The notes beneath the pieces were generated by a model that made no database searches, was not told the origin of the DNA, and saw only the letters and a program-made list of their open reading frames with translations. Below, piece after piece: positions 11,127 to 48,071 of a DNA stretch of 62,379 nt. Each line of letters begins with the position of its first letter. The first letter of the stretch is position 1. This DNA is from Natrinema pallidum DSM 3751 (GTDB lineage Archaea; Halobacteriota; Halobacteria; Halobacteriales; Natrialbaceae), in assembly GCF_000337615.1 (NCBI RefSeq), contig NZ_AOII01000038.1, positions 10,569 through 72,947 of the forward strand, read 5' to 3'. A program made the translations under genes and the position numbers.

Positions 11127-12242
11127 ATGGTTGACCTGATTGATGTCTTCTTAGAGGGGTTCAAAGACGCCGTCGACTGGGTCATTAGCCTCTTCATGGA
11201 GGGGCTGACGGCTGGCTACGAGACTCTGACAGAGGAGATGTTTGGCACGCCGACGCCTGAGACGGATGGGGCATTCGTCTTCGGCGACCCGATCAACGCT
11301 CCCTGGCAGGCAATCCGAGATGCGTTGGTGGGCGGTGAGATCATGCTGATTTCGTTGCTCCTCCTTTTGATGTGCGTCCAAGGACGGCATACGATCCGGA
11401 TTTTCAATCTCGGGAGTGCATACGAATCTAGACGGACGAAGAAGACCGCCTGGGTTGGAGCGTTCCTTATTATCAGCTGGTACTGGGTGAGTATTCTGGG
11501 CCTCTACATAGTGGATGGATTCACGATTGCTCTGATGCCGAGTCTCAGTTCACTAGGTGATGCGATGCTCAATTTCCTCGAAGTCTCTCTAACGAATCCC
11601 GGGCTTGCACTCGTATTCGCCCTTCTCGGCGGTCTCTCGATGTGGGCCCTAGAGGCACTGTACTTCATTCGAGAGATTCTCCTCTACGTCTACGTGTATG
11701 GAATGCCGATAGCGTTCGCACTTGGCTACGGCAATATCCCGGTTCTCTCCGATATCGCGATGGGATTTACCAAACGGTTCGTCCCGCTCGCAGTTCTTCC
11801 CCTCCCGGCAGCAGTAGTGTTCAAAGGATACGATTTGCTCTACTCGCAAGATGCAATTGCTCCAAATAGCGCGTTTCTGAAGTACTTGGTAGCAGTCTCG
11901 CTACCCCTGATTGCCCTCTATGTCACGTGGAAGACGTTCAAATACGCGACTCCGCTGACTGCCAAGGTCGTCGGTGGTGCTACGAAAGGGGCGGCACTCG
12001 TCGGCGGTGTCGCTGCTGGAGCCTACGTCGGTGGTGCTGGCGTCGCGACGACTGCCGCCCGGTGGGGGCCGAAAGCGGCCGCAGGGCAAGCTGTCGCCCA
12101 GAAAGCAGCCGCCCGAGGAGACAATGGAGATCAGGGCAGCGGTAAGCCGTCGTACCGCAGAACCGAGAACGACCCGGGCGAGCCGACAGCGAACACATCG
12201 AATGACAAACGCGGTATGGAGTTTGATCGAGGGATCCAGTAA
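11127..12242 (+). CDS. VirB6/TrbL-like polytopic membrane protein
   Basis: A 371-residue protein with about five to six membrane helices (roughly residues 70-88, 105-135, 155-180, 183-202, 212-232 and 250-270), followed by an Ala/Gly-rich amphipathic segment and a hydrophilic, charged tail. The N-terminal 60 residues are amphipathic. This topology and its place between exported proteins and the PrgI/VirB4 pair match VirB6-type inner channel proteins of type IV secretion systems. There is no direct sequence signature, so the call rests on topology and gene order. It is 2 bases from each neighbour. Confidence 0.6.
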   Translation: MVDLIDVFLEGFKDAVDWVISLFMEGLTAGYETLTEEMFGTPTPETDGAFVFGDPINAPWQAIRDALVGGEIMLISLLLLLMCVQGRHTIRIFNLGSAYESRRTKKTAWVGAFLIISWYWVSILGLYIVDGFTIALMPSLSSLGDAMLNFLEVSLTNPGLALVFALLGGLSMWALEALYFIREILLYVYVYGMPIAFALGYGNIPVLSDIAMGFTKRFVPLAVLPLPAAVVFKGYDLLYSQDAIAPNSAFLKYLVAVSLPLIALYVTWKTFKYATPLTAKVVGGATKGAALVGGVAAGAYVGGAGVATTAARWGPKAAAGQAVAQKAAARGDNGDQGSGKPSYRRTENDPGEPTANTSNDKRGMEFDRGIQ

Positions 12243-21564: not shown

Positions 21565-21605
21565 TTAACCAACAGGCTCGCTATATCACGCTGCTTGTTG
21601 GTTAA
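21565..21605 (+). promoter_or_regulatory. Family A dyad 2
   Basis: TTAACCAACA, 21 bases, TGTTGGTTAA; perfect 10-bp arms. Lies between the primase-like gene and the winged-helix regulator at 21710, 105 bases before the latter. Confidence 0.8.
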
Positions 21606-21709
21606 CTACGCTGAGTCTCGCCGTGAAATGGGGGCTACCGCAGGATATTGTGGTTCAGGAAACTATTCCTCGAAGTAAGAACTATATCCTCTGGTCTACA
21701 AGCCCACGT

Positions 21710-22243
21710 ATGTCCGAGTCAGACGCCGCCGATGGGCCGCCCCCCTTCGAGGATGCGTTCGCCAGCGACGACGTCGAACAACGCATCTACGGCACCATCC
21801 TACAGACCCGCGAGCCGACGACGGCGAGCGCGATCGCCGACAGCGCCGACTGTGACCCCAAGACCGCCCGGAAGTATTTGAGCTGGTTCGACGATCTCGG
21901 CATCGTTACCCGGTACGACGGACATCCAGCCACCTACGAACGGAATGACGCGTATTTCGAGTGGCGACGCATCAACCAGCTCGCAGCCGACCATTCCGTC
22001 GAGGACCTGCAGGAGCGCGTTCGTGAACTCACGACGCGCATCACCGAGTATGAAGAGGCGTACGACGCCGCGTCACCGGCCGCCGTCGACGCCGTCGCCG
22101 CCGCGGAGGGCAGCGACGAGCGGACCATCGACGACGTGTACGGCGACCTCGGCGACTGGGCGACCGCCCGCAAGGAGCGAGACCGCTACGAACGGGCGCG
22201 CCAGCAACGCACGGGTGGCGAGCGCGACCAGGCATCCGGGTAG
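21710..22243 (+). CDS. Winged-helix DNA-binding protein (DUF7342-like), possible antitoxin or regulator
   Basis: A 177-residue protein. Residues about 20-75 form a winged helix-turn-helix (TTASAIADSADCDPKTARKYLSWFDDLGIV) of the kind found in TrmB-like and DUF7342-like haloarchaeal regulators, followed by a helical, charged region (ELTTRITEYEEAYD) that should dimerise. ATG 21710 is chosen because an ACTATATCC TATA-like element lies about 25 bases upstream and residues before it look non-coding. It starts 105 bases after dyad A2. The next gene, 8 bases away, resembles TumE-type toxins, so the pair may be a toxin-antitoxin module. This protein is also a candidate for the factor that binds family A dyads. 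Confidence 0.65.
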   Translation: MSESDAADGPPPFEDAFASDDVEQRIYGTILQTREPTTASAIADSADCDPKTARKYLSWFDDLGIVTRYDGHPATYERNDAYFEWRRINQLAADHSVEDLQERVRELTTRITEYEEAYDAASPAAVDAVAAAEGSDERTIDDVYGDLGDWATARKERDRYERARQQRTGGERDQASG

Positions 22244-22704: not shown

Positions 22705-22736
22705 GCGTTTATCGCGCCGACCAAGGGTGACGGCGC
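22705..22736 (+). promoter_or_regulatory. Family B element 1
   Basis: T-rich GCGTTTATC, then a perfect 6-bp hairpin (22714-22719 with 22731-22736) whose loop contains AAGGGTGA. The next start codon is 79 bases downstream, at 22815. Confidence 0.65.
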
Positions 22737-23475: not shown

Positions 23476-23506
23476 GTCGTTCGCGCCCGCAAAGGGGCGA
23501 GGCGCG
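23476..23506 (+). promoter_or_regulatory. Family B element 2
   Basis: GTCGTTCG followed by two mutually exclusive hairpins: outer 23482-23487 with 23501-23506 (6 bp) and inner 23484-23488 with 23495-23499 (5 bp). Core sequence AAAGGGGCGAGG. The next start codon, 23536, is 30 bases downstream. Confidence 0.65.
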
Positions 23507-30318: not shown

Positions 30319-30348
30319 GCGTTTATTTCCCCCTCAATGGGTGAGGGG
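30319..30348 (+). promoter_or_regulatory. Family B element 3, upstream of tfb
   Basis: GCGTTTATTTC followed by a perfect 6-bp stem (30330-30335 with 30343-30348) and loop AATGGGT. The tfb start codon is 39 bases downstream. Confidence 0.65.
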
Positions 30349-30386: not shown

Positions 30387-31313
30387 ATGGCAATCAGAGA
30401 CATCTACGAAACTGACTTCGACGAGGACGTCCAGACGGAGTCGAGTGCGAACCAGTGTCCCGAGTGCGACGGCCGGGTCACCACCAACGCAGTCGAAACC
30501 ATCTGCGAAGACTGTGGCCTTGTCATCGACGAGCAGCGGATCGACCACGGGCCAGAGTGGCGAGCGTTCGACGAAGACGAACGGGAGCGCACGGGCGCTC
30601 CGTTGACGGCGGCACGACACGATCGAGGGTTGTCGACGGAGATCGGCCGCGGAACCGATGCGAACGGGAACGAACTCTCAGGACAGAAGCGACGCCGGCT
30701 GTTCCGGATGCGGCGTGAACAGACCCGTGGACGGTTTCAATCGAAAGCTGAACGCAACCTCGCACACGGGCTTAGTGAAGTCCGCCGGGTCAGTAGTGTG
30801 CTCGAACTATCCGAAACGATCCGTGACCAGGCCTGCCAGCTCTTCCGCAGCGCTCAGAACGAGGACCTCCTCCAGGGCCGGTCGGTCGAGGCGATGGCCG
30901 CCGCGAGTGTCTACGGCGCGTGTCGGTGTAACGGGCGGCCGCGAACGCTCGACGACATCACCGAGTCGGCGCGCGTCGAGCAATCGCGGGTGACGAACGC
31001 ATACACGACGCTGAATACGGAACTTGGCCTGCCAGCCCAACCCGTGACACCGAGTGCGTTCGTTCCGCGGTTGGCCTCGGAGCTTGACGTCTCCGATCAG
31101 ATCCGGCAGCGGGCTCGGCAGTTGGCGGAAGCATCCGAATCGACCGGAGCAACCACGGGAGTTCGGCCATCCGGGTTCGCCGCAGCCTGTCTGTACAAGG
31201 CCGGACGCGAAGACGGACGGTGGCTCACCCAGTCGGACGTCGCTGACGTTGCGAACGTCTCAGTGGTCACCGTGCGGACCCACCGCGACGCGCTGGACGA
31301 ACTGGCTGTGTAG
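30387..31313 (+). CDS. tfb: Transcription initiation factor IIB (TFB)
   Basis: A 308-residue TFB from ATG 30387. The N-terminal zinc ribbon (CPECDG...CEDCG, about residues 24-45) recruits RNA polymerase. The B-reader/linker region (GPEWRAFDEDERERTG, residues about 58-73) is conserved, and two cyclin folds follow (about 115-205 and 210-305), ending in a helix-turn-helix (WLTQSDVADVANVSVVTVRTHRDAL) that reads the BRE. Haloarchaea carry several TFBs that select promoter sets. One on a mobile element, behind a family B element, is a natural candidate for recognising element-specific promoters. Confidence 0.93.
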   Translation: MAIRDIYETDFDEDVQTESSANQCPECDGRVTTNAVETICEDCGLVIDEQRIDHGPEWRAFDEDERERTGAPLTAARHDRGLSTEIGRGTDANGNELSGQKRRRLFRMRREQTRGRFQSKAERNLAHGLSEVRRVSSVLELSETIRDQACQLFRSAQNEDLLQGRSVEAMAAASVYGACRCNGRPRTLDDITESARVEQSRVTNAYTTLNTELGLPAQPVTPSAFVPRLASELDVSDQIRQRARQLAEASESTGATTGVRPSGFAAACLYKAGREDGRWLTQSDVADVANVSVVTVRTHRDALDELAV

Positions 31314-32313: not shown

Positions 32314-32354
32314 TTAACCAACGGATCCTGATATCGATTCGTTCTGTTGGTTAA
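32314..32354 (+). promoter_or_regulatory. Family A dyad 3
   Basis: TTAACCAACG, 21 bases, TGTTGGTTAA (9 bp pairing plus one mismatch). It precedes a family B element (32406) and the gene at 32443. Confidence 0.8.
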
Positions 32355-32405: not shown

Positions 32406-32438
32406 GTGTTTTTTCGCGCCGTAAATTGGCGGAGGCGC
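32406..32438 (+). promoter_or_regulatory. Family B element 4
   Basis: GTGTTTTTTCG, then a 5-bp stem (32416-32420 with 32434-32438) around ATTGGCGGA. The start codon at 32443 follows 5 bases after the stem, so a promoter in the T-run would give a nearly leaderless transcript. Confidence 0.65.
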
Positions 32439-32682: not shown

Positions 32683-32714
32683 GTTGTTCGCCCCGTTGAA
32701 GGGGTGCGGGGGCG
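32683..32714 (+). promoter_or_regulatory. Family B element 5
   Basis: GTTGTTCG and a 6-bp stem (32689-32694 with 32709-32714). The inner CCCC (32691-32694) can instead pair with GGGG at 32701-32704. Core AAGGGGTGCGG. Start codon 32739 is 25 bases downstream. Confidence 0.7.
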
Positions 32715-33120: not shown

Positions 33121-33151
33121 GTTGTTCGTCCCCCGGGAGGGGTGCGGGGCG
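33121..33151 (+). promoter_or_regulatory. Family B element 6
   Basis: GTTGTTCG starts 2 bases after the preceding stop. A stem of about 6 bp with one G.T wobble (33128-33133 with 33146-33151) encloses GAGGGGTGC. Next start codon 33188. Confidence 0.6.
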
Positions 33152-33187
33152 ATCCAGTCGTGGGTCGTCCTGCGATGTGATTGTTCA

Positions 33188-34367: not shown

Positions 34368-34399
34368 GTTTTTCGAGCGCCGGCGATGGGTGCCGGCGC
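34368..34399 (+). promoter_or_regulatory. Family B element 8 (strongest stem)
   Basis: GGTTTTTCGA, then a perfect 8-bp stem (34377-34384 with 34392-34399) and a 7-base loop GATGGGT. Start codon 34455. Confidence 0.72.
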
Positions 34400-35927: not shown

Positions 35928-36003
35928 ACAAAACCATACACAGTGTGGTCTGATAAACCTTTGCCAGCAGTACAGCACCAATCGACATCCCTCACGGCGA
36001 ATG

Positions 36004-36034
36004 ACGTTTATTTCTGGGCCGGGATGGGTGGCCC
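36004..36034 (+). promoter_or_regulatory. Family B element 9
   Basis: ACGTTTATTTC and a 5-bp stem (36016-36020 with 36030-36034) with loop GGGATGGGT. The 3' arm can instead pair downstream, GGCCCG with CGGGCC, around TCTCAAT (about 36030-36048), a mutually exclusive fold. Start codon 36059. Confidence 0.7.
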
Positions 36035-36058
36035 GTCTCAATCGGGCCAGATCCACAG

Positions 36059-36454
36059 ATGAGTCTGGAAATCATCGACCGTCACAGCGAAGCACTGTTC
36101 GAGTTCCTCTGGTGTCCCGTCTGCGGGCACGAGGTATTTAGTCACATTCCGTTCGAAGGTGTGTTCTGCAAGAACTGCAACACGCAGGTCGAACTCCAAG
36201 AATCCCGAGAGACGCGCGGCTACGAGGAGGCCGTCCTCGCCTGCTTCGACACCCACTCGACGTGGAACCTCCACGTCGACGAGAAGCTCCGTCGCGACCT
36301 GCCTGATGGGTCGGCGCGGGTGAAGATCCTCGGCGCACCGGGTGCCTACGAGGTCGACTGGTGGAGTCCAGCACCCTGCGATGACTGGCAGCCGGTCGAG
36401 CGTGGTGAATTCGATGAGGTCGACGAACCAGCCGATATCTCCCATCTCGCGTAG
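36059..36454 (+). CDS. Zinc-ribbon protein, function unknown
   Basis: A 131-residue protein beginning MSLEIIDRHSEALFEFLWCPVCG. The ribbon is formed by CPVCGHEV (about residue 19) and CKNCNTQ (about 39). The later part is alpha/beta with Trp-rich loops (YEVDWWSPAPCDDWQPVERGEF). Similar proteins recur in haloarchaeal plasmids. A DUF7567-like assignment is possible but unverified. A family B element sits 25 bases before the start. Confidence 0.6.
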   Translation: MSLEIIDRHSEALFEFLWCPVCGHEVFSHIPFEGVFCKNCNTQVELQESRETRGYEEAVLACFDTHSTWNLHVDEKLRRDLPDGSARVKILGAPGAYEVDWWSPAPCDDWQPVERGEFDEVDEPADISHLA

Positions 36455-36472
36455 GGGAAAGCAGTTCCTGTG

Positions 36473-36505
36473 GCTGTTTTTCACCCCCTGAGGGGTGCGG
36501 GGGTG
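36473..36505 (+). promoter_or_regulatory. Family B element 10 (best mutually exclusive fold)
   Basis: GGCTGTTTTTCA, then either a 6-bp hairpin, 36482-36487 with 36492-36497, or a 7-bp hairpin, 36482-36488 with 36499-36505. Both are perfect and share the same 5' arm. Core GAGGGGTGCGG. Start codon 36534. Confidence 0.75.
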
Positions 36506-36533
36506 CTCGAACGAGTAGCTCCCGAACAGACCG

Positions 36534-36935
36534 ATGAGTAGATCTAGCGACACATACTCGATTGAACAGACACGCCCAGCGAGCGACTGCGACATCGCCT
36601 ACGTCGGGTATCGGCAGAGCGGGCAGGCTATCGTTGAGAAACGTCCCGGCCAAGAACGGCTCACGCCAGAGCGGAGTCTCGCGCTGGTGAATCACAGTCC
36701 CTCGGGATTCGAATGGGGATATGGTGGTAGTGGTCCGGCGCAACTCGCGCTCGCACTCCTCCTCGACTACACGGATGACGAAGCGTTCGCTCTCGACCAC
36801 TACCAGGCATTCAAAACCGAGATCGTGAGCCAGCTGGACTGCGCTGGGTCTGGTGAACGCTGGCGACTCACGGGACCCGAGATCGACGCAGTCCTTCACG
36901 AAACACCCGGCGAGCCGGTCGCACCGTCCATCTGA
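36534..36935 (+). CDS. DUF6166-like protein, paralog of 37999-38424
   Basis: A 133-residue protein with the DUF6166 signature: LALVNHSPSGFEWGYGGSGPAQLALALLLDYT, followed by a short helical segment (HYQAFKTEIVSQL). DUF6166 proteins are small phage/plasmid-associated proteins of unknown function. A second copy at 37999-38424 has the same arrangement, and both have family B elements upstream, so an operon-module duplication is likely. Confidence 0.75.
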   Translation: MSRSSDTYSIEQTRPASDCDIAYVGYRQSGQAIVEKRPGQERLTPERSLALVNHSPSGFEWGYGGSGPAQLALALLLDYTDDEAFALDHYQAFKTEIVSQLDCAGSGERWRLTGPEIDAVLHETPGEPVAPSI

Positions 36936-36955
36936 ACTAATCACCGAGAGTAACC

Positions 36956-37234
36956 ATGTCAGAACACACCCCACCATCTCGTGCAGATGACGAATCGGCT
37001 GAATCGAATGAACAGACGACACGAACGGAGTACGTCGAACGCAGTGACGTCGGCGTCTCCCTCACCGTGAAGCTTACTCGCGGGACTGGCACCCGCGATC
37101 AGGACAAAATCGTGGCCAAAGCGAAAGGCAAGACCCTCGAAGACGCTCGCGAGGACATGGAGATTCTTCGGGAGTACATCCACGATCTCGCTGAGGACGC
37201 CCGCCAGATCCAACCCGAGGAAGAAGACGGGTAA
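36956..37234 (+). CDS. DUF7389-like small protein
   Basis: A 92-residue protein with a disordered acidic start and a conserved-looking core: YVERSDVGVSLTVKLTRGTGTRDQDKIVAKAKGKTLEDA. The alternating strand then helix suggests a single alpha/beta unit. It matches my memory of haloarchaeal DUF7389 proteins. It lies 20 bases after the DUF6166-like gene and shares its transcript. Confidence 0.6.
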   Translation: MSEHTPPSRADDESAESNEQTTRTEYVERSDVGVSLTVKLTRGTGTRDQDKIVAKAKGKTLEDAREDMEILREYIHDLAEDARQIQPEEEDG

Positions 37235-37242
37235 CGGCGAGG

Positions 37243-37277
37243 GCTGTTTTTTCTCGCCTCAGCAGTGACGGAGGCGA
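37243..37277 (+). promoter_or_regulatory. Family B element 11
   Basis: GCTGTTTTTTC, then a perfect 7-bp stem (37254-37260 with 37271-37277) around AGCAGTGACG. The GTG start at 37284 follows 6 bases later. Confidence 0.68.
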
Positions 37278-37283
37278 TCATCA

Positions 37284-37505
37284 GTGAGCAATCCTGACGG
37301 TCAATCGACTGACGTGAGCGAGATTTCACCAGAACAACGGCTCGAACCCCCGAATACGCGACTGATCAACGCCGGTATCGTGACGATCAACGATATGGAG
37401 ACGCTGCTAGCCTGCGTCGCCTACGAGAACGCGAATCAGCAACGGGTCCAGATCCTCCGCCGGCTTGAACAGCGGGCCAGCGAAATTCGCGCAGAAGACG
37501 ATTGA
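37284..37505 (+). CDS. Small helical protein, function unknown
   Basis: A 73-residue acidic protein, GTG start at 37284 (MSNPDGQSTDVSEISPEQRL), with a helical C-terminal half (ACVAYENANQQRVQILRRLEQRASEI). The family B stem ends 7 bases before the start, so a nearly leaderless transcript is expected. Unrecognised. Confidence 0.5.
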   Translation: MSNPDGQSTDVSEISPEQRLEPPNTRLINAGIVTINDMETLLACVAYENANQQRVQILRRLEQRASEIRAEDD

Positions 37506-37558
37506 CGCAGCACTCGGGGCTGTCTGTCGGAGCCTCGGTGGGTGGAGGCTCGAATGAG

Positions 37559-37858
37559 ATGAGCGATCGACCAGAGATCGAGATTCAACGACAGACCGCA
37601 TTCGATGACGATGGCCAACTCGAAGTAACCGAAACAAGCGTCGAGACCTCGCTTGAGGACTTCGGCGCTGACGTGGATCATCGCGACCGGGATTCGCGTC
37701 TTGACCAGCCCGAGGCGAGTGAGTTCGGCGTCGACGATCGACCCGAAGTTGAGCAAACATCCGAGGGAGATCAGTCAACACTCTTCGCTGATACGAACGA
37801 GGATCAGCAGACCCTCAATGGAGAGGATGCAGCCGCTCGCTGTCTCTTCGAAGAATAG
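37559..37858 (+). CDS. Small disordered acidic protein, function unknown
   Basis: A 99-residue protein from ATG 37559 (a TTG at 37502 would extend it by 19 residues). Very acidic and low in hydrophobic residues (ETSLEDFGADVDHRDRDSRLDQPEASEFG), probably disordered. It could be a scaffold or DNA-mimic-like protein. The sequence does not decide. Confidence 0.45.
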   Translation: MSDRPEIEIQRQTAFDDDGQLEVTETSVETSLEDFGADVDHRDRDSRLDQPEASEFGVDDRPEVEQTSEGDQSTLFADTNEDQQTLNGEDAAARCLFEE

Positions 37859-37944
37859 GCTTGCCTCTATCAGTTGGTTGTCTGATGAATTGTTATACTG
37901 AATTCTAACTTTGAAGCGACGTTGAGGGGCTAATAGCCGGTGGT

Positions 37945-37974
37945 GGTTTTTCGACCCCCAGCAGGGGTGCGGGG
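37945..37974 (+). promoter_or_regulatory. Family B element 12
   Basis: GGTGGTTTTTCGA, then a 5-bp hairpin (37954-37958 with 37964-37968), or alternatively C-run pairing with GGGG at 37971-37974. Core CAGGGGTGCGG. Start codon 37999. Confidence 0.68.
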
Positions 37975-37998
37975 AATCCGAACGCCCGCATTCAACCG

Positions 37999-38424
37999 AT
38001 GGAGACGAATTCGACTACCGACCCACGAGCAGTCGTACAGGATACGGATGAGCGATGTCAGGCGAGTACAGACCGCGTCGAGTACGTCGGGATGCGTGTC
38101 GACGGAACACCAGTGGTCCTGAATCTCACCGCACACGAACGCCTCTCCCCTAATCGAAGTCTCGACCTCGTGCGGCATAGCCCGGCGGGATTCGACTGGG
38201 GCTACGTTGGGAGCGGACCGGCACAGCTCGCCTGTGCGCTCCTCCTCGATTATACCGACAACGAAACCGTCGCCCAGCAACACTACATCCAGTTCCGCGA
38301 CGCAGTAGTCAGTCAGTTGGTGTGTGATGGTCCGGCCGACTGCTGGCACCTCATCGGGGAGGATATCGAGGCGGCACTCGTCGCTGAGAGTAACGACCTC
38401 GTCGAGCCAGAGGAGGACATCTGA
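37999..38424 (+). CDS. DUF6166-like protein, second copy
   Basis: A 141-residue paralog of the protein at 36534-36935: LDLVRHSPAGFDWGYVGSGPAQLACALLLDYTD, with an N-terminal extension. It is the first gene of a three-gene operon (next start overlaps its stop by 1 base). The acidic, variable C-terminus contrasts with the conserved core. Function unknown. Confidence 0.72.
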   Translation: METNSTTDPRAVVQDTDERCQASTDRVEYVGMRVDGTPVVLNLTAHERLSPNRSLDLVRHSPAGFDWGYVGSGPAQLACALLLDYTDNETVAQQHYIQFRDAVVSQLVCDGPADCWHLIGEDIEAALVAESNDLVEPEEDI

Positions 38425-38579
38425 TGGAGAACATCCGACTCTCGCGGGCCACGTACCAACTCATCGAACGCGCCATCATAGCGCTGGAGTGCATCGGCCG
38501 AGAACTCGAGCGATACAACGATCGGCACGAGCGAACAGCTGGGAAAGACACAGACGAGACGAATCCCAGCGACTCATGA
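38424..38579 (+). CDS. Small helical protein between two coupled genes
   Basis: A 51-residue protein starting at ATG 38424 (MENIRLSRATYQLIERAIIALECI). Its start overlaps the preceding stop (TGATG) and its stop overlaps the next start by 4 bases (ATGA), so it is almost certainly translated. Amphipathic helix followed by a charged tail. Too short for many gene finders. Confidence 0.6.
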   Translation: MENIRLSRATYQLIERAIIALECIGRELERYNDRHERTAGKDTDETNPSDS

Positions 38580-39112
38580 CTGACGAAGCGACGCTTGACT
38601 ACTTCAAGGGCGAGACATCATCCGGAGAGTCCAGATCGCTCACGCTGGAAGAGCGACTCCTCACCCCGATCTCTCCATCCATCGGTCTGCGGGTGATTCC
38701 CGGTCGTGAGGATCCGCTCTATCTCCAGAACCGGGGCACTGAGCGGTATCTCTTCCGCGACGATCACGACCGGTGGTTCATCCTTCAACCCTCAGCGAAG
38801 GACTCAGAGGACATGTTCGTCCGGTGGGTATATCTCCCAGCAGACCGGCCCGAACGGCTGGCGCAGTCGGCGCTTCGTCGACGGACGGTGATTGGCTATG
38901 ATTACGTTCAGCGGTCGGCCGCACCAGATCCAGTCAGGTCGACGGTGACGGCGATGTTCGTCACGGAACCGTGGCCCGACACCGCCTACGAGTGTGGGTC
39001 ATGTGAGGCGCTGTTCGACACGGCACAAGAGCACGCCCTGCACTGCTGGGACGCACATCCGTGGGTGCCGAATCCTGAACAGGTGCGCCGTCGACGCCAC
39101 GCTGACGAGTGA
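38576..39112 (+). CDS. C2H2-like zinc-finger protein
   Basis: A 178-residue protein starting at ATG 38576, overlapping the previous stop. The body is beta-rich (LTPISPSIGLRVIPGREDPLYLQNRGTERYLFRDDHDRWFILQP). The C-terminus has a C2H2-like finger, YECGSCEALFDTAQEHALHCWDAHPW. Likely binds DNA or RNA. It is the last gene of the three-gene operon before dyad A4. Confidence 0.6.
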   Translation: MTDEATLDYFKGETSSGESRSLTLEERLLTPISPSIGLRVIPGREDPLYLQNRGTERYLFRDDHDRWFILQPSAKDSEDMFVRWVYLPADRPERLAQSALRRRTVIGYDYVQRSAAPDPVRSTVTAMFVTEPWPDTAYECGSCEALFDTAQEHALHCWDAHPWVPNPEQVRRRRHADE

Positions 39113-39152
39113 ATTCAAGAGCCGAAGACAGGTGTCGGGACCGTCCAGATTA

Positions 39153-39193
39153 TTAACCAACAGTACTGGATTCTTGGGTAGAATGTTGGTTAA
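39153..39193 (+). promoter_or_regulatory. Family A dyad 4
   Basis: TTAACCAACA, 21 bases, TGTTGGTTAA. Perfect arms. Ends 5 bases before a family B element. Confidence 0.8.
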
Positions 39194-39197
39194 GGAT

Positions 39198-39233
39198 GGT
39201 TGTTTTTGCGCCCGTGAGAGGGGCGCAGGGCGC
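39198..39233 (+). promoter_or_regulatory. Family B element 13
   Basis: GGTTGTTTTTGCG. The 5' arm GCGCCC (39208-39213) can pair with either of two GGGCGC arms (39221-39226 or 39228-39233), both perfect. Start codon 39284. Confidence 0.73.
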
Positions 39234-39283
39234 GTGATGAGAGCGCCGGTGCGGATGACGAACTCGATTTCGAGGTGACTGCA

Positions 39284-40444
39284 ATGAAAGACCCAGAATC
39301 CAGAACCGTGTTCGCGGGCGTCGACGGACGAACCGATACAGAACTACCCGACTGGTACCGCCGGAAGAAAACGGTCGACGAACCGAAATCCTTCGCCGAG
39401 ACGATTCGTGACCTCCCGCAGGCCGTCGAGACGACAGTCGCATACCGGAATCCCTACTCCGACGAGTGGGTCGAAACGGAGCGCTTCAACGCCTTAGTCG
39501 AGCCGACGAGAGCGCGCGACCACGCGACAGACGATGAGCCCGACGCAGACCCACTATTTCACGTCCCCACGGACAGTTACGCGATCATCAATCCGGTCGA
39601 CGTGTACAGGCCCTTGGAAGAGGTTCTTCGCGAGAAGACCATCGACGGGACGCCGCTCGGCGATGTGATGTTCGGCGAGATCCGGCGCTACCGGGGCGGG
39701 GGCGAAGTCCATATGGACGTGATGTTCGACGGCCTCGAGGTGCGCCTTCCTGGCCGGGCGGACCCGATCACGATGGGCGTGACCTCCGGCTACGACTTCT
39801 TCGGTGAGCACGCAGTCTACGTAGAGGGATTCGCTCAGGACGGGTACTGCTCGAATTCGATGCGCTCGCTCACCGACAAGGAAGTCATCAAGCACGTCGG
39901 GGACGTTCGGGACTTCCGGACTTGGTGGGAGGAGATTCTCGCCCAGGTCGAACTCGTCGCCGACGATCTCTTCGAGTTCATCCGAGATGTGCAGGAGATT
40001 GATCTCGAGTTCTCCGAGCTCCCGTTCACCGTCACCGAGTTTTACAGCCTGCTGGGATTCCCGGACTATCTCGCAGAGCGTGCTGCCGAGGATGCCGAGG
40101 CGAACGCTACGTCGCCGTTCGAGATCGATATGTGGACGCTGCACTCCGGCGCGACGTACGCGCTCACCCACTTCTTCCAAGGGAAAGAGGGCACGTCCCT
40201 CGACCAGTACGTCCGCGTTGCAAACGACATCCTGTTCAACCCGGAAGGCACCATCGAGCGCGTCGAACGAGCCTACGAGGAGCAGCTGGAAGCTGACGGC
40301 GAGGACGGGTCGCAGGCGTCGCTCGCCGGCGAGCGGGCGCTCGCGTGCATCGAGCGTGTGAACGAGGACCTGCAGGACAACGTCGAGCAGTTCGAAGCGC
40401 GTGAAGAGGCGCTTCGCGAGCGGTTCCAGCAGGTGACGAACTAG
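39284..40444 (+). CDS. DUF932-like phage/plasmid protein
   Basis: A 386-residue protein; ATG 39284 is preferred to GTG 39275. Residues about 90-210 (SYAIINPVDVYRPLEEVLREKTIDG, FGEIRRYRGGGEVHMDVMFDGLEV) follow the DUF932 pattern of plasmid and phage proteins, which are often next to genes for DNA replication or anti-defence. The C-terminal third is helical and acidic. It is a single-gene unit between dyads A4 and A5. Role unknown. Confidence 0.6.
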   Translation: MKDPESRTVFAGVDGRTDTELPDWYRRKKTVDEPKSFAETIRDLPQAVETTVAYRNPYSDEWVETERFNALVEPTRARDHATDDEPDADPLFHVPTDSYAIINPVDVYRPLEEVLREKTIDGTPLGDVMFGEIRRYRGGGEVHMDVMFDGLEVRLPGRADPITMGVTSGYDFFGEHAVYVEGFAQDGYCSNSMRSLTDKEVIKHVGDVRDFRTWWEEILAQVELVADDLFEFIRDVQEIDLEFSELPFTVTEFYSLLGFPDYLAERAAEDAEANATSPFEIDMWTLHSGATYALTHFFQGKEGTSLDQYVRVANDILFNPEGTIERVERAYEEQLEADGEDGSQASLAGERALACIERVNEDLQDNVEQFEAREEALRERFQQVTN

Positions 40445-40471
40445 CGCGGTCATCCGTTTTCGCGTTTCCAT

Positions 40472-40604
40472 ATGGCAAACGAGAACGCCCACCAGCAGTG
40501 TCCCATCTGTGATCGCCGAATCGCGAGCGTGACGATCGTCGGGGTCGAGTGAAGCAGCGGTCGCGCCGTGCGGGCATCGTGTCGTTCCCCATCGACTCGA
40601 TTGA
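40472..40604 (+). pseudogene. Treble-clef zinc-finger gene broken by a one-base frameshift
   Basis: From ATG 40472 the frame reads MANENAHQQCPICDRRIASV and ends early at about 40552. A second frame starting near it encodes SSEAAVAPCGHRVVPHRLD, ending at 40604. Joined, they form a small CPIC...CGH protein of a kind common in haloarchaeal plasmids. The two halves differ by one base. Confidence 0.55.
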
Positions 40605-40650
40605 AGACTTGACTCCGCTGAGCGGACACGGTGGCTACGTCGTCTCTATA

Positions 40651-40692
40651 TTAACCAACGATATGGGGGTTCTGGAGACTGGTGTTGGTTAA
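40651..40692 (+). promoter_or_regulatory. Family A dyad 5
   Basis: TTAACCAACG, 22 bases, TGTTGGTTAA (9 bp pairing plus one mismatch). Precedes a family B element and the gene at 40769. Confidence 0.8.
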
Positions 40693-40707
40693 TAGCGGAC
40701 TGCGGCT

Positions 40708-40738
40708 CCGTTTATTTCCTCTCCAAGAGGGTGCAGGG
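40708..40738 (+). promoter_or_regulatory. Family B element 14
   Basis: CCGTTTATTTC and a 5-bp stem (40718-40722 with 40726-40730), then GAGGGTGCAGG. Shorter loop than the others. Start codon 40769. Confidence 0.6.
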
Positions 40739-40768
40739 CGGCTGGATTCGCCCTCACAGCCCGTATTC

Positions 40769-41773
40769 ATGTCGCTCAAAATCAACTCCAGCAGCAGCAG
40801 CATTGAACGCGACATCGCCGCTGCCAGACAAGCCGACGTCGTGGCGTTCCTCCATCGAGCGCCGTTCGCTCTGGATGCGTATCGGCTCGGATTCTTGCCC
40901 GGGTTCCGAGAAGACTGTGGGTACCAGCAGACCCAGTATCAGAACCTGGACATCCCCGTCGGGATGTTGGATAACGACTTTCGGAATCCCGATCTGGACC
41001 GATACGTCGCCCGGTTTTTCGAGCACGAACCCGAGGTCGGCGTCATCGGAGATGCATACGAGGAGGACGACGTCGACGAATACGTGGCCGTCGCCCGTAA
41101 GATTCAGGCGAGCTACCCCGATACGGAACTCGTCATCGTCCCCAAGTGCCGGGAGCTAATCGACGCGATCCCGAACGATCTTGTGCTCGGTTACTCGCGG
41201 GGGTACGCCGACCGGTTGGCGCACGAGTTCTCCGAGCCGACCGACTGGCGTGGCCGCCGTGTGCACATTCTCGGGGGGAGCCCACTGAAACAGTGGGACG
41301 TCATCCAGCAGTTGACCCAACCGACACTCACAGACGACCCACCGGCCGACATCGTCGGCCTCGACTGGAACGGGCTACATCGCGGCGCGCAGTTCGGGGA
41401 ATTCTGGACAGCTGACGGGTGGAACGACAGTGGTCGCGACACCGACCACGTCACAGTTCGGAAGACAGTCCGACACAGTCTCGCCCGGATCAAGGCCTTC
41501 TGGCAGTCTCACGGTGTCTGGCCTGACTCGACACCACAGGACAACTCCTTCGAGATCGAGTACGAGGGCCCGTCACCAGCCGACCTCGATAGTGCTGCGT
41601 GTACCGAATGCGGAGCGAACGTCTGGACGACTCGGCGCGGTCCCTTCGTCGCTGAATATGATACCGGCATGCTCTGTGGCTACTGCAGCTACGAGTGCTA
41701 CTTCTCGCATCGCCACCAGAACAACCTTGAGGAGATCGCCGGCGAGCAGAGCGTGTACATTCCGCCGGCGTGA
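40769..41773 (+). CDS. DUF6610-like protein
   Basis: A 334-residue protein from ATG 40769. Residues 20-200 have TIM-barrel-like alternation (ADVVAFLHRAPFALDAYRLGFLPGF, PEVGVIGDAYEEDDVDEYVAVA, TELVIVPKCRELIDAIPNDLVLGYSRGYAD, RVHILGGSPLKQWDVI). The C-terminus has a zinc ribbon, CTECGANVWTT and CGYCSYEC. It matches my memory of haloarchaeal DUF6610 proteins. The barrel layout recalls enzymes acting on modified bases in DNA or RNA. If so, it could help the element evade restriction, but this is inference. Confidence 0.65.
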   Translation: MSLKINSSSSSIERDIAAARQADVVAFLHRAPFALDAYRLGFLPGFREDCGYQQTQYQNLDIPVGMLDNDFRNPDLDRYVARFFEHEPEVGVIGDAYEEDDVDEYVAVARKIQASYPDTELVIVPKCRELIDAIPNDLVLGYSRGYADRLAHEFSEPTDWRGRRVHILGGSPLKQWDVIQQLTQPTLTDDPPADIVGLDWNGLHRGAQFGEFWTADGWNDSGRDTDHVTVRKTVRHSLARIKAFWQSHGVWPDSTPQDNSFEIEYEGPSPADLDSAACTECGANVWTTRRGPFVAEYDTGMLCGYCSYECYFSHRHQNNLEEIAGEQSVYIPPA

Positions 41774-41782
41774 CGCCACGAG

Positions 41783-41813
41783 TGGTTTTTCGCGCCCCGG
41801 AGAGGGCGAGGGC
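41783..41813 (+). promoter_or_regulatory. Family B element 15
   Basis: GTGGTTTTTCG starts 10 bases after the preceding stop. A 5-bp stem, 41793-41797 with 41804-41808, competes with GCCC pairing to GGGC at 41810-41813. Next start GTG 41849. Confidence 0.67.
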
Positions 41814-41848
41814 TTGATCCAGAAAGTCCTCCGAGAAGGTGATTTTCC

Positions 41849-42196
41849 GTGAGTCAACAACAGCGTCCGAACGACGTCTCGATCGACGATATTCCAGTCG
41901 ACGTATCGAACACCCAATCAGGCGAGGTCGATCCCGCTGAGGTACCCGAGGAAATCCGATCGATCACTCGTGGACTCGCAAGCGAGCAACCGCCGACGAA
42001 TCCGCTCGTCGTCCTGAAGGCCGCCCGCTGGTGGTATATACATGGCAAGGGTGGGACCGATCCCGCGTTCCAGTGGGCGATCGAGTGGGCACGACACCTC
42101 GCGACGGACACGCCGAGCGATGTCGACCAGTTCGACGCGTTCCTTGAGTACCTCGTCACGGTCGGCTTCGCTGACGAGAAAGCAGCGCTCCGATAG
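41849..42196 (+). CDS. Accessory protein, function unknown
   Basis: A 115-residue acidic protein, GTG start at 41849 (MSQQQRPNDVSIDDIPVDV). Residues 55-110 are helical (PLVVLKAARWWYIHGKGGTDPAFQWAIEWARHL). No family recognised. It sits in an operon-like string with the DUF6610-like gene upstream and the ArdC-like gene downstream. Confidence 0.55.
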   Translation: MSQQQRPNDVSIDDIPVDVSNTQSGEVDPAEVPEEIRSITRGLASEQPPTNPLVVLKAARWWYIHGKGGTDPAFQWAIEWARHLATDTPSDVDQFDAFLEYLVTVGFADEKAALR

Positions 42197-42230
42197 CAGC
42201 CCCGATCTAAACCCCCCGAAGTCGCGCCGA

Positions 42231-42262
42231 TGTTTATTGTGCGCCCCCGAGGGGTGCGGCGC
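42231..42262 (+). promoter_or_regulatory. Family B element 16
   Basis: ATGTTTATTGTG and GCGCC (42241-42245) pairing with GGCGC (42258-42262), or a 7-bp fold including one wobble with GGGGTGC. Core GAGGGGTGCGG. The gene starts at 42297. Confidence 0.7.
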
Positions 42263-42296
42263 GTCCTGACTTCTCGGAGACGTCGTCGTACTCGAT

Positions 42297-43238
42297 GTGA
42301 TGCAATCCATGATGACAGCTAGTGAGTCGGGAGTCTCGTTCGAGGAAACCGACACCCGACACGACGAGATGCACAGTACGATCGAAGACTGGATCGACGA
42401 GCTCGTCGCAGACGTCGACGAGGCAAAAGCCAGCCAACAGTTCCAGGAGTGGCTCGATGTCCAGTCCCGATTCCATGACTACTCACATCGCAACACCCTC
42501 CTGATCAAACTCCAGTATCCCGAGGCGACCCGCGTGGCGGGCTACAATACGTGGAGATCGGAGTTCGACCGGCATGTCCAAGAGGGCGAACAGGCGATCT
42601 GGATCTGGGCACCCATTATTACGAAGCAGTGCCCGGAGTGCGAGAACTCACCGAGCTACCACGAGCAAAGCGACTGTGACTACGACGAGACACCGCCCGA
42701 GGAGTGGTCGAAAGGACTGGTTGGATTCAAACCAACGGCAGTCTTCGATGTGTCTCAAACCGAGGGCGAACCGCTACCCGAGCTGGAAACCGAGGCAGCT
42801 GGTGACGCCGACGACCTGGTGCCAGCGCTCCTTGATGCGGCAGCTACTCTCGATGTCGACGTCCGTGTCGTCGACGCTGCCGAGTGGGAGCATGGCGACG
42901 CGAAAGGCGTCTGCAAACACCGGACTCTCCACGAGGGCCAGCCCGTCGTCGAAGCGAAAGCCCGCTCAAATCAGGCCGATCTCGCGGTGACATTGGTTCA
43001 CGAGTACGCCCACGCGCTGCTTCATTTCGATGGCGACGACGAGCCCGAGCGCGCAAAACGCGAGGTCGAAGCGGAAGCCGTTGCGTACATCGTCGGGCGG
43101 TATTTCAACCTGGATACGAGCGGGTCAGCGTTCTATCTTGCCGCGTGGCAGGACGACGATGCGGAGAGCATTCAGGAGCGACTCGGCCGGATCAGTTCGA
43201 CCGCGCAGGAGATCATCGGGACGGTCGCCGAGAGCTGA
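42297..43238 (+). CDS. ardC: ArdC-like antirestriction protein with metallopeptidase motif
   Basis: A 313-residue protein (GTG 42297; ATG 42300, 42309 and 42312 also possible). Residues about 45-140 match the ArdC N-terminal ssDNA-binding domain (FHDYSHRNTLLIKLQYPEATRVAGYNTW, QAIWIWAPI). The C-terminal part has a zinc-metallopeptidase motif, HEYAH (residues 235-239). ArdC of conjugative plasmids binds single-stranded DNA and protects incoming DNA from restriction. Its presence in a conjugative element fits that role. A Cys-rich insertion (about 107-125) is unusual. Confidence 0.8.
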   Translation: MMQSMMTASESGVSFEETDTRHDEMHSTIEDWIDELVADVDEAKASQQFQEWLDVQSRFHDYSHRNTLLIKLQYPEATRVAGYNTWRSEFDRHVQEGEQAIWIWAPIITKQCPECENSPSYHEQSDCDYDETPPEEWSKGLVGFKPTAVFDVSQTEGEPLPELETEAAGDADDLVPALLDAAATLDVDVRVVDAAEWEHGDAKGVCKHRTLHEGQPVVEAKARSNQADLAVTLVHEYAHALLHFDGDDEPERAKREVEAEAVAYIVGRYFNLDTSGSAFYLAAWQDDDAESIQERLGRISSTAQEIIGTVAES

Positions 43239-43256: not shown

Positions 43257-43299
43257 TTAACCAACGCCTTGGGGGTATCTTGTCCACTCTGTTGGTTAA
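43257..43299 (+). promoter_or_regulatory. Family A dyad 6, without a downstream plus-strand gene
   Basis: TTAACCAACG, 23 bases, TGTTGGTTAA (9 bp pairing plus one mismatch). It lies between the convergent ends of the ArdC-like gene and the minus-strand nucleotidyltransferase remnant, so it is not upstream of any gene. Confidence 0.75.
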
Positions 43300-44800: not shown

Positions 44801-44860
44801 CAGATATACTATTCTTGGCTCCGGTAATCCGATCCGGCTTAGAATTTGAGCAGAGATGAA

Positions 44861-44902
44861 TTAACCAACAGAGGATACGATGGATCGCTATTCGTTGGTT
44901 AA
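44861..44902 (+). promoter_or_regulatory. Family A dyad 7
   Basis: TTAACCAACA, 22 bases, CGTTGGTTAA (9 bp pairing plus one mismatch). Directly followed by a family B element and the gene at 44954. Confidence 0.8.
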
Positions 44903-44934
44903 GTCTATCAGCGCCCGCCGAGGGGCGGAGGCGC
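44903..44934 (+). promoter_or_regulatory. Family B element 17
   Basis: Directly adjoins dyad A7, whose TTAA takes the place of the T-run. Outer stem 44911-44915 with 44930-44934, or inner stem 44912-44916 with 44923-44927. Start codon 44954. Confidence 0.65.
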
Positions 44935-46356: not shown

Positions 46357-46548
46357 CCCCCCGTTATCGAGTTGTAAATGGGAAAGGGTGAGGAGATAGT
46401 ACAGCACATCGCCCGGCATATCGAATCGCTTGGCTCACCCACCCCCCGTTTTCGAGTAGTAACGAGACATCCCGACGACCGACACTCCCCATTTTCGAGT
46501 TGTAACACATCACGCGGGATACGAACCCCCCCCGTTTTCGAGAAGTAA
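46357..46548 (+). repeat. Four ORB repeats downstream of orc1/cdc6
   Basis: Consensus CCCCGTTTTCGAGTWGTAA. Copies at 46357-46377, 46442-46462, 46486-46505 and 46526-46548, all in the same orientation. They match the repeats on the other side of the orc1/cdc6 gene and are probably Orc1/Cdc6 binding sites. Confidence 0.8.
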
Positions 46549-46571
46549 GTGCAGGAAGAATACGGGCGAGA

Positions 46572-48071
46572 TTAGTTCTTACTCCGGAACTGCTTCAGCC
46601 GTTCGCGGACAACTGCACTGATTGTCGCCTCTTCGTGAGCTAGATCTTCGAACCGGGAATCCTCACGGATCGTCTCCATGATCGTTTCCGGATCCTCAGA
46701 GAGGGAGAAATACATATGCACTCCTCTGCCTCGACCCTTACCTCGACGCTCGAAGTCCAACACACCGTACGTACTCTGCTCAGTGACGTGATTTACGAAC
46801 GTCTCGCGACTGTACTGGTCCGCGTCCAACGTATCAGCAATGAATTGGTACGTCTTGAACGCTGGTCCAGCAGGGATCCACTCAGGGTGTTCTCTTGCGT
46901 AGTTGGCCGTTGCCGCCACGGCGTAGATAGAGAGTTTCTTTTGAGTCGAAATTCCGCTGATATGGCGGAGTTTGCGGTTTTCGGTGTATTTCTCCTGGGC
47001 TTCACGGACATCAGTCTCAGTAACCGTGTCAGCTCCACGCCGCTCAGCTAATTCGCCAGCCCATCTGAGGAGATCAATCGCCTTCCGCGCATCCCCATGC
47101 GTTTGGGATCCGAACGCGGCAACAAGCGGAATGACATCATCTGCAAGTGATTCTGGCTTGAAGGCGTCCTCCCGGTTGTGGAGAATACTACGGAGTTGCG
47201 TCGCATCGTAATCGTCGAAGAAGATGTCGTCGGGATTGTAGGAACTTTGTGCGCGGCTGTTGAGGTCCTTCATGAAGTCGGCGTAGTTCGTGATCGTCGT
47301 GAGTGAAATGGGACCATCAAAGTCGGCGAGTTTGCGAGCCCGTGAAAGCTGGTAGATGAGAGAATTGTACTCTGCTTCCTGATACGGTCCCTCGAGCATA
47401 TCGATTTCATCGAGGATGAAGATGACACCATCGTAATACTCTCGCATAAGTTCGTACAGTCGCTCGAGCTTCTGATCCGTTGAGACGCCGGTTTGGGGAA
47501 CACCAGGATCGACACCGAGATCGTTGGCAGCAGCTTTAACTAGCCGGTAGACAGCCCGATCCGCAGTCTTCGGTCCCTCGCAGTTGATAGAGAGGACCCC
47601 GAAGGTCTTGTCTTGTGATTCACATAGTTCGACAATCTGTTTGCAGACCGCATGAATGATGAGCGACTTCCCCGTTCCAGATGGCCCACTCAGGAGCATA
47701 TCGGGGATCCCTTCATTCTGGAGGACCGGTTTTAGATTATCGACGACACGGCCCAGCTGGTCGTCGCGACCGACGATACGGTCCTCGTCGATGATAGTAT
47801 CTGACCGGACGAGGTCTTTGTTCGCGAACACGCCACCGGACGACTCGGTTTGGAGCCGATCACGAATCGAGATGCCACCACCGTCGCCGTTAGTTGCTTC
47901 TTGAGACGAATCGGCGGGATCTGATCCATTTCCGAAGGTCGTTTGTGACGTGCCAGGAGACGCCACCTCCTCATCCATCGACTCGGGATTTTCAGGATCA
48001 GCAGAAGAAGATTCACGATCCTCCTTACTTTCCGGATTATTCGATCCTGCTCTACGTCCCTCTCGTCCCAT
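46572..48071 (-). CDS. orc1/cdc6: Orc1/Cdc6 replication initiator
   Basis: A 499-residue AAA+ initiator with a disordered acidic N-terminal extension (about 85 residues). Walker A is GPSGTGKS (residues 129-136), Walker B is ILDEID (Asp221). The sensor and lid region follow, and a C-terminal winged helix binds origin repeats. Orc1/Cdc6 melts the origin and loads the MCM helicase. ORB repeats lie on both sides of the gene, and a TTTTTATA box at 48095-48102, 24 bases before the start, gives a leaderless transcript. This is the main initiator of the replicon. Confidence 0.92.
   Translation of the reverse strand: MGREGRRAGSNNPESKEDRESSSADPENPESMDEEVASPGTSQTTFGNGSDPADSSQEATNGDGGGISIRDRLQTESSGGVFANKDLVRSDTIIDEDRIVGRDDQLGRVVDNLKPVLQNEGIPDMLLSGPSGTGKSLIIHAVCKQIVELCESQDKTFGVLSINCEGPKTADRAVYRLVKAAANDLGVDPGVPQTGVSTDQKLERLYELMREYYDGVIFILDEIDMLEGPYQEAEYNSLIYQLSRARKLADFDGPISLTTITNYADFMKDLNSRAQSSYNPDDIFFDDYDATQLRSILHNREDAFKPESLADDVIPLVAAFGSQTHGDARKAIDLLRWAGELAERRGADTVTETDVREAQEKYTENRKLRHISGISTQKKLSIYAVAATANYAREHPEWIPAGPAFKTYQFIADTLDADQYSRETFVNHVTEQSTYGVLDFERRGKGRGRGVHMYFSLSEDPETIMETIREDSRFEDLAHEEATISAVVRERLKQFRSKN

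Follow-up and report, generated by a model that had tools for sequence, protein, structure and literature searches.

The window, i.e. the whole stretch of 62,379 nucleotides from Natrinema pallidum DSM 3751 that was analysed, encodes a VirB4-like ATPase, a TrbL/VirB6 protein, a coupling-protein-like ATPase, a primase-helicase, a TFB, an ArdC-like protein and Orc1/Cdc6. As read from its sequence, the window is part of a haloarchaeal plasmid of conjugative type. A tailed provirus was considered and ruled out by gene content (i.e. VirB4, VirB6, the coupling-protein-like ATPase, TFB, ArdC and Orc1/Cdc6). In PLSDB, 164 haloarchaeal plasmid records match the region 36000-42300, and among 293 sampled haloarchaeal genomes of the order, 97 (about one third) contain a relative of the DUF6610 protein. 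Comparisons were made over a set of 69 loci (1.51 Mb) that drew on eight annotated plasmids and 60 genome regions, some of the regions possibly being identical plasmids. The gene for the plasmid TFB, an archaeal TFIIB homologue (Pfam PF00382, E = 6.9e-36), occupies positions 30387-31313 of the plus strand.

A short element on the plus strand at 36476-36505 lies 58 nt before the ATG of a gene encoding a DUF6166 protein (36534-36935). Its T tract (36476-36481) is followed by a 5' arm that can pair in two ways. In the near pairing, CACCCC (36482-36487) forms a perfect 6-bp stem with GGGGTG (36492-36497) across a 4-nt spacing (loop CTGA). In the far pairing, CACCCCC (36482-36488) forms a perfect 7-bp stem with GGGGGTG (36499-36505) across a 10-nt spacing (loop TGAGGGGTGC); a GGGTG motif starts at 36493. 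The claim of the earlier note that one 5' arm within 36473-36505 can form either a 6-bp near or a 7-bp far hairpin was therefore exact, as both pairings are perfect. The predicted RNA fold of this copy preferred the far stem, at -13 kcal/mol.

This element is one of a family of repeats, termed family B. A matrix search and then a structural scan located 17 copies within the window, each of them on the plus strand. Those listed in the earlier note were real but the list was incomplete, lacking the copies at 22707, 30321, 32408, 33121, 34368, 37246, 37522 and 40710. In several copies the far stem runs to 5-8 bp, whereas any near alternative stays below 4 bp. These are 22707-22736 (6 bp, GCGCCG/CGGCGC, loop ACCAAGGGTGA), 30321-30348 before the plasmid TFB gene (6-7 bp, CCCCTC(A)/(T)GAGGGG), 34368-34399 (8 bp, GCGCCGGC/GCCGGCGC, loop GATGGGT), 37246-37278 (7 bp, TCGCCTC/GAGGCGA, with loop AGCAGTGACG carrying a divergent loop motif) and 37522-37551 (7 bp, GAGCCTC/GAGGCTC, loop GGTGGGTG), in all of which the near stem is absent, together with 36006-36035 (5-6 bp, GGGCC/GGCCC). 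Similar alternative pairings had been proposed for further copies, and near stems of 4-6 bp were present at 23476, 32683, 37946, 41785, 42232 and 44903 but not at 36006, where the near pairing based on GGGTG is just 2 bp and the alternative is a second GGGCC farther downstream.

Both stems can be drawn for the elements at 23476-23506 (far 6 bp, near 5 bp), 32408-32438 (5 and 4 bp), 32683-32714 (6 and 4 bp), 33121-33152 before a DUF6735 gene (5 bp, or 7 bp with a G-T pair, and 4 bp), 37946-37974 (4 and 5 bp), 41785-41813 (4 and 5 bp), 42232-42264 before the ArdC-like gene (5-7 and 4 bp) and 44903-44934, which adjoins an inverted repeat of another family, family A (5 and 5 bp). At 39202-39234 two GGGCGC arms do compete for one GCGCCC, as had been claimed, with 39208-39213 pairing with either 39221-39226 or 39228-39233; the predicted RNA fold favoured the near form. 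A degenerate copy before the DUF6610 gene (40710-40738) is an exception, having a near stem of 5 bp and a far stem that is weak or absent.

The family B unit spans 30 nt and consists of a GTTTTT-like tract, a stem and a loop carrying GGG(T/C)G. The stem begins 2-4 nt after the T tract and 8-9 nt from the first base of the tract, and GGGYG is held tightly at 17-21 nt from that base (mode 18-20). Common loops are GATGGGT, TGAGGGGTGC and AGAGGGGTG. Automatic grouping by sequence placed most copies in a single family and was abandoned. Across the 69 loci the structural scan counted 604 copies in the orientation of the genes and 34 in the opposite one, and a choice of sites that ignored the stem (i.e. 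T tract and GGGYG only) gave 461 against 20. None of the minus-strand genes of five annotated plasmids was preceded by a family B element. An element precedes 500 of 525 orthologues of 12 genes, a count made at a threshold where a small share of matches could be chance, and stands at a gene-specific distance (medians of 52-87 nt before the start codon, with most elements at 50-90 nt).

Chance similarity or an artefact of composition would be conceivable insofar as GC-rich sequence makes short stems common, and a low-threshold scan did find many matches and was too noisy to use. Shuffled sequences, however, gave no match at threshold 19, slightly stricter than that of the 604:34 scan, and the reversed pattern had no match in the listed genomes as compared to 69 of 293 genomes for the real pattern; together with the strand bias, these results leave such an explanation with a negligible probability. 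A single strict match in viral contigs looked like a chance occurrence.

The far and near pairings were compared in 109 non-redundant sites, chosen without a stem requirement, by swapping their 3' segments. Far stems of at least 5 bp were observed in 77 sites against 32.6 (sd 4.2) after swapping, and near stems in 34 against 23.7 (sd 3.2). Far pairing exceeded the swap control at three redundancy levels with z of about 8-12, and near pairing did so with z of 3-5, values that serve as guides and not as probabilities because the copies are related and not independent. The far arms are gene-specific yet complementary and include unrelated, even reversed sequences (e.g. GCGCCGGC, GAGCCTC, TCGCCTC, GGGCC and GGGGC). 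Inside a single gene family the arms tend to be conserved and compensatory changes are scarce; column covariation accordingly gave mostly little signal, with a few covarying far-stem pairs. Three analyses of G-U versus A-C intermediates in the stems showed no clear RNA-type asymmetry.

The earlier note had viewed the mutually exclusive hairpins as the design of a switch or of slipped protein-binding sites; the analysis spoke neither for nor against the latter. Strand-specific hairpin elements before genes, where leader control would act, were borne out by the wider comparison, but mutual exclusion as a general design was not. In a two-state RNA switch the near and far hairpins would be alternative regulatory states in those genes that keep both, and both stems are indeed kept in most or all orthologues before the DUF6166, 41849, 44954 and ArdC genes; the excess of near pairing over the swap control and the predicted preference for the near form at 39202 point the same way. 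Conservation of two exclusive pairings across the members, as for a riboswitch or attenuator, was nevertheless not seen: a near hairpin of useful length is impossible in the TFB, 36059, 34428 and 37522 families, and likewise in copies 22707 and 37246, all with far stems of 5-8 bp. Moreover, the near arm is itself the conserved loop motif GGGYG, so that a 5' arm rich in C pairs with it as a matter of course, and no ligand- or ribosome-linked feature was seen. A switch is accordingly rated as improbable. We conclude that the far hairpin is the design common to family B and that near pairing is mostly incidental; near pairing may serve a subset of genes.

Family B is most readily interpreted as a cis-acting expression element that marks the gene starts of one plasmid regulon, with the hairpin most likely in the leader RNA, a reading to which we assign a probability of roughly 0.4. 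The far hairpin would form in single-stranded nucleic acid, most simply leader or intercistronic RNA, and the U-rich strand and GGGYG loop would be read by one common trans-acting factor, encoded by plasmid or host, through which the translation, stability or read-through of the whole regulon would be set together. The near hairpin would arise mostly as a by-product wherever the 5' arm is rich in C and so matches the conserved G-rich loop. The complementarity of unrelated arms argues against a double-strand DNA operator for one protein. With regard to a possible ribosome (SD) standby site, a GGGGTG loop could pair with the 3' end of 16S rRNA if one G-U pair is allowed, but the fully complementary GAGGTG occurred in only one of 250 loop regions.

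A hairpin in the leader RNA would call for a promoter upstream, and none is visible that would place the hairpin in RNA. The abrupt onset of conservation at the T tract fits a promoter better than leader RNA. Alternatively, the T tract may serve as AT box in a promoter peculiar to the plasmid, possibly one for its TFB; transcription would then begin close to where the inverted repeat ends on its 3' side, the repeat lying between AT box and start site. Another A/T-only 6-mer was found upstream of 4 of 62 genes with an element as compared to 54 of 107 genes without one (p = 1e-9), although genes read through from upstream would also be expected to lack their own TATA box. A/T-only 5-mers occurred in 157 of 224 contexts at +1, i.e. 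at the T tract, and never in more than 8 at a given position upstream. Several unrelated sequences upstream of the TFB gene give way to the same element, some elements sit 54-81 bp from divergent genes, and operator-like repeats of family A adjoin the T tract in some genes. The T tract also fits loosely the motif TTWT given for the haloarchaeal TATA box (PMC4983044), but many tracts (GTTGTT, GTCTGT, GTCGTT) are poor TATA boxes. A canonical haloarchaeal promoter has a BRE and a TATA box at about -27 from the start site, and a CGAAA-type BRE was not found upstream of the tract. Furthermore, normal promoter spacing would put the start site at or past the 3' arm, leaving the hairpin untranscribed, and arbitrary complementary arms could not act in duplex DNA. 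The leader-RNA reading was slightly preferred, since nothing but a folded strand accounts for the arms, with a promoter as a close, likewise tentative second choice.

Co-occurrence with the plasmid TFB was counted in favour of a promoter. This TFB was present in 52 of the 69 genomes with the strict element pattern (odds ratio 10), a link that is only a co-occurrence and would partly be expected from common plasmid ancestry. The plasmid TFB gene has its own family B element, and its product is a candidate trans factor by inference only. A private expression system, in which the plasmid TFB and the 30-nt element work together, the AT box and GGGYG hairpin acting jointly and the arms being free to vary, is a rather doubtful extension of these ideas; if true, it would constitute a structure-dependent promoter or leader code of a kind not described in archaea.

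Further observations were made around TFB genes elsewhere. A Halobacterium hubeiense plasmid carries a TBP gene (locus L008, 4537-5097) as well as a TFB gene near the element regulon. The sole strict match in genome G132 (contig C1, 2483222-2483250) is situated some 75 nt ahead of a TFB gene whose product is 62% identical to the plasmid TFB; this genome had no listed DUF6610 match, and the strict element before its TFB gene suggests that element and tfb may travel together. In one plasmid group a conserved block, GGGCTTTCGCCAC(A/C)GC, lies upstream of the TFB element (L003 at 11300-11436 and its orthologues L045, L055, L079, L072, L085 and L087).

The elements could also act as a single-strand DNA signal when the plasmid enters a recipient, and would then be Frpo-like leading-region promoters, priming sites or attC-like recombination sites. 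Such a role would suit the one-strand orientation, the ArdC-like gene in the regulon and the conjugation genes close by. The gene-specific distances to start codons and the largely conserved gene order, however, point to expression control, and differ from the shuffled cassettes with sites tied to cassette ends that characterize attC. Stems of 4-9 bp with loops of up to 14 nt do not rebuild a double-stranded promoter as in Frpo, and the T tract is outside the far stem in most copies. A signal acting on plasmid entry was therefore judged to be quite unlikely. A terminator was rejected, as the run of T stands before the stem and is frequently broken by other bases.

Known systems were searched for relatives of family B. 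No match was obtained in the region 22000-46000 among 4227 Rfam models at E up to 1. PeSLs are phage elements with a bacterial early promoter and a terminator-type hairpin. Family B differs from them in having no T run 3' of the stem and in a largely conserved gene order. These promoter-stem-loop cassettes of T4-type phages resemble family B in being a repeated intergenic promoter-like box with a stem-loop before genes (PMC3950731, PMC4503421). Family B was absent from Rfam and from the papers searched (a set outside which most subscription papers fall), and its closest counterpart appears to be an intergenic motif of Halogranum tailed virus 1 (HGTV-1). This motif combines a TATA-like box and an inverted repeat and is likened to PeSLs (PMC3950731, after Sencilo et al. 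2013). The HGTV-1 copies, read from KC292026, share with family B a haloarchaeal mobile element as carrier, repetition before many genes and a T-rich box with a short inverted repeat behind it. They differ in near-constant arms (CTCCTCG..CGAGGAG) followed by TATATAAA and CTTAAT boxes, and in the absence of a GGGYG loop; a family B scan of HGTV-1 found no copy. The general trait of the HGTV-1 and PeSL types, a T-rich or promoter-like box beside a stem-loop repeated before genes, was also found in family B.

Haloarchaeal mobile elements provide a second comparison in HF2, whose class I and class II intergenic repeats stand before genes and carry promoters where tested (PMC8707807). These are fixed sequences of 58 or 29 bp with AT motifs and, unlike family B, are without gene-specific complementary arms (PMC8707807). 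The diagnostic words TCTTTAAGTC (class I) and CCCTTTAC (class II; PMC8707807) were absent from the 17 copies in the window. Among bacterial plasmids, a common upstream sequence (EGeRS) defines a regulon that includes ardC in the pLS20 family of Bacillus (PMC8708921); type 1 EGeRS are bacterial, sequence-conserved and 420-750 bp in length, as compared to 30 nt for family B. In cluster K mycobacteriophages many genes have in common a small signal with an inverted repeat (SAS/ESAS) before the start (PMC3203893); the ESAS arms have a 17-bp consensus and adjoin the start-associated sequence, whereas those of family B have no common consensus. Compared by design, EGeRS and ESAS are analogues in idea and not relatives of family B.

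Family B places one small signal before at least 12 genes, mostly of unknown function, on plasmids across much of Halobacteria, and among the members of the regulon so marked are an anti-restriction-like gene and the TFB of the plasmid itself. The element offers a simple handle for finding further members of the regulon and a testable case of a structured gene-start signal, of which archaea have few known examples. The first interpretation is corrected in that what the copies have in common is a single hairpin whose loop is conserved, not a two-state switch.

Two other kinds of repeat were observed in the window. Family A consists of inverted repeats of the form TTAACCAAC N15-25 GTTGGTTAA, with conserved arms, that often lie just upstream of the family B T tract (21565-21605, 32314-32354, 39153-39193, 40649-40694, 43257-43299 and 44858-44905). 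One copy is directly before an HTH gene (21623-22243; DUF7342, TrmB-like) and, given this position, may be an operator of that regulator. Additionally, repeats of CCCCCCGTTTTCGAGTTGTAA at 46400-46560, 48275, 48602 and 48930 flank the Orc1/Cdc6 gene (46572-48071) and are probably the origin recognition boxes of the plasmid.
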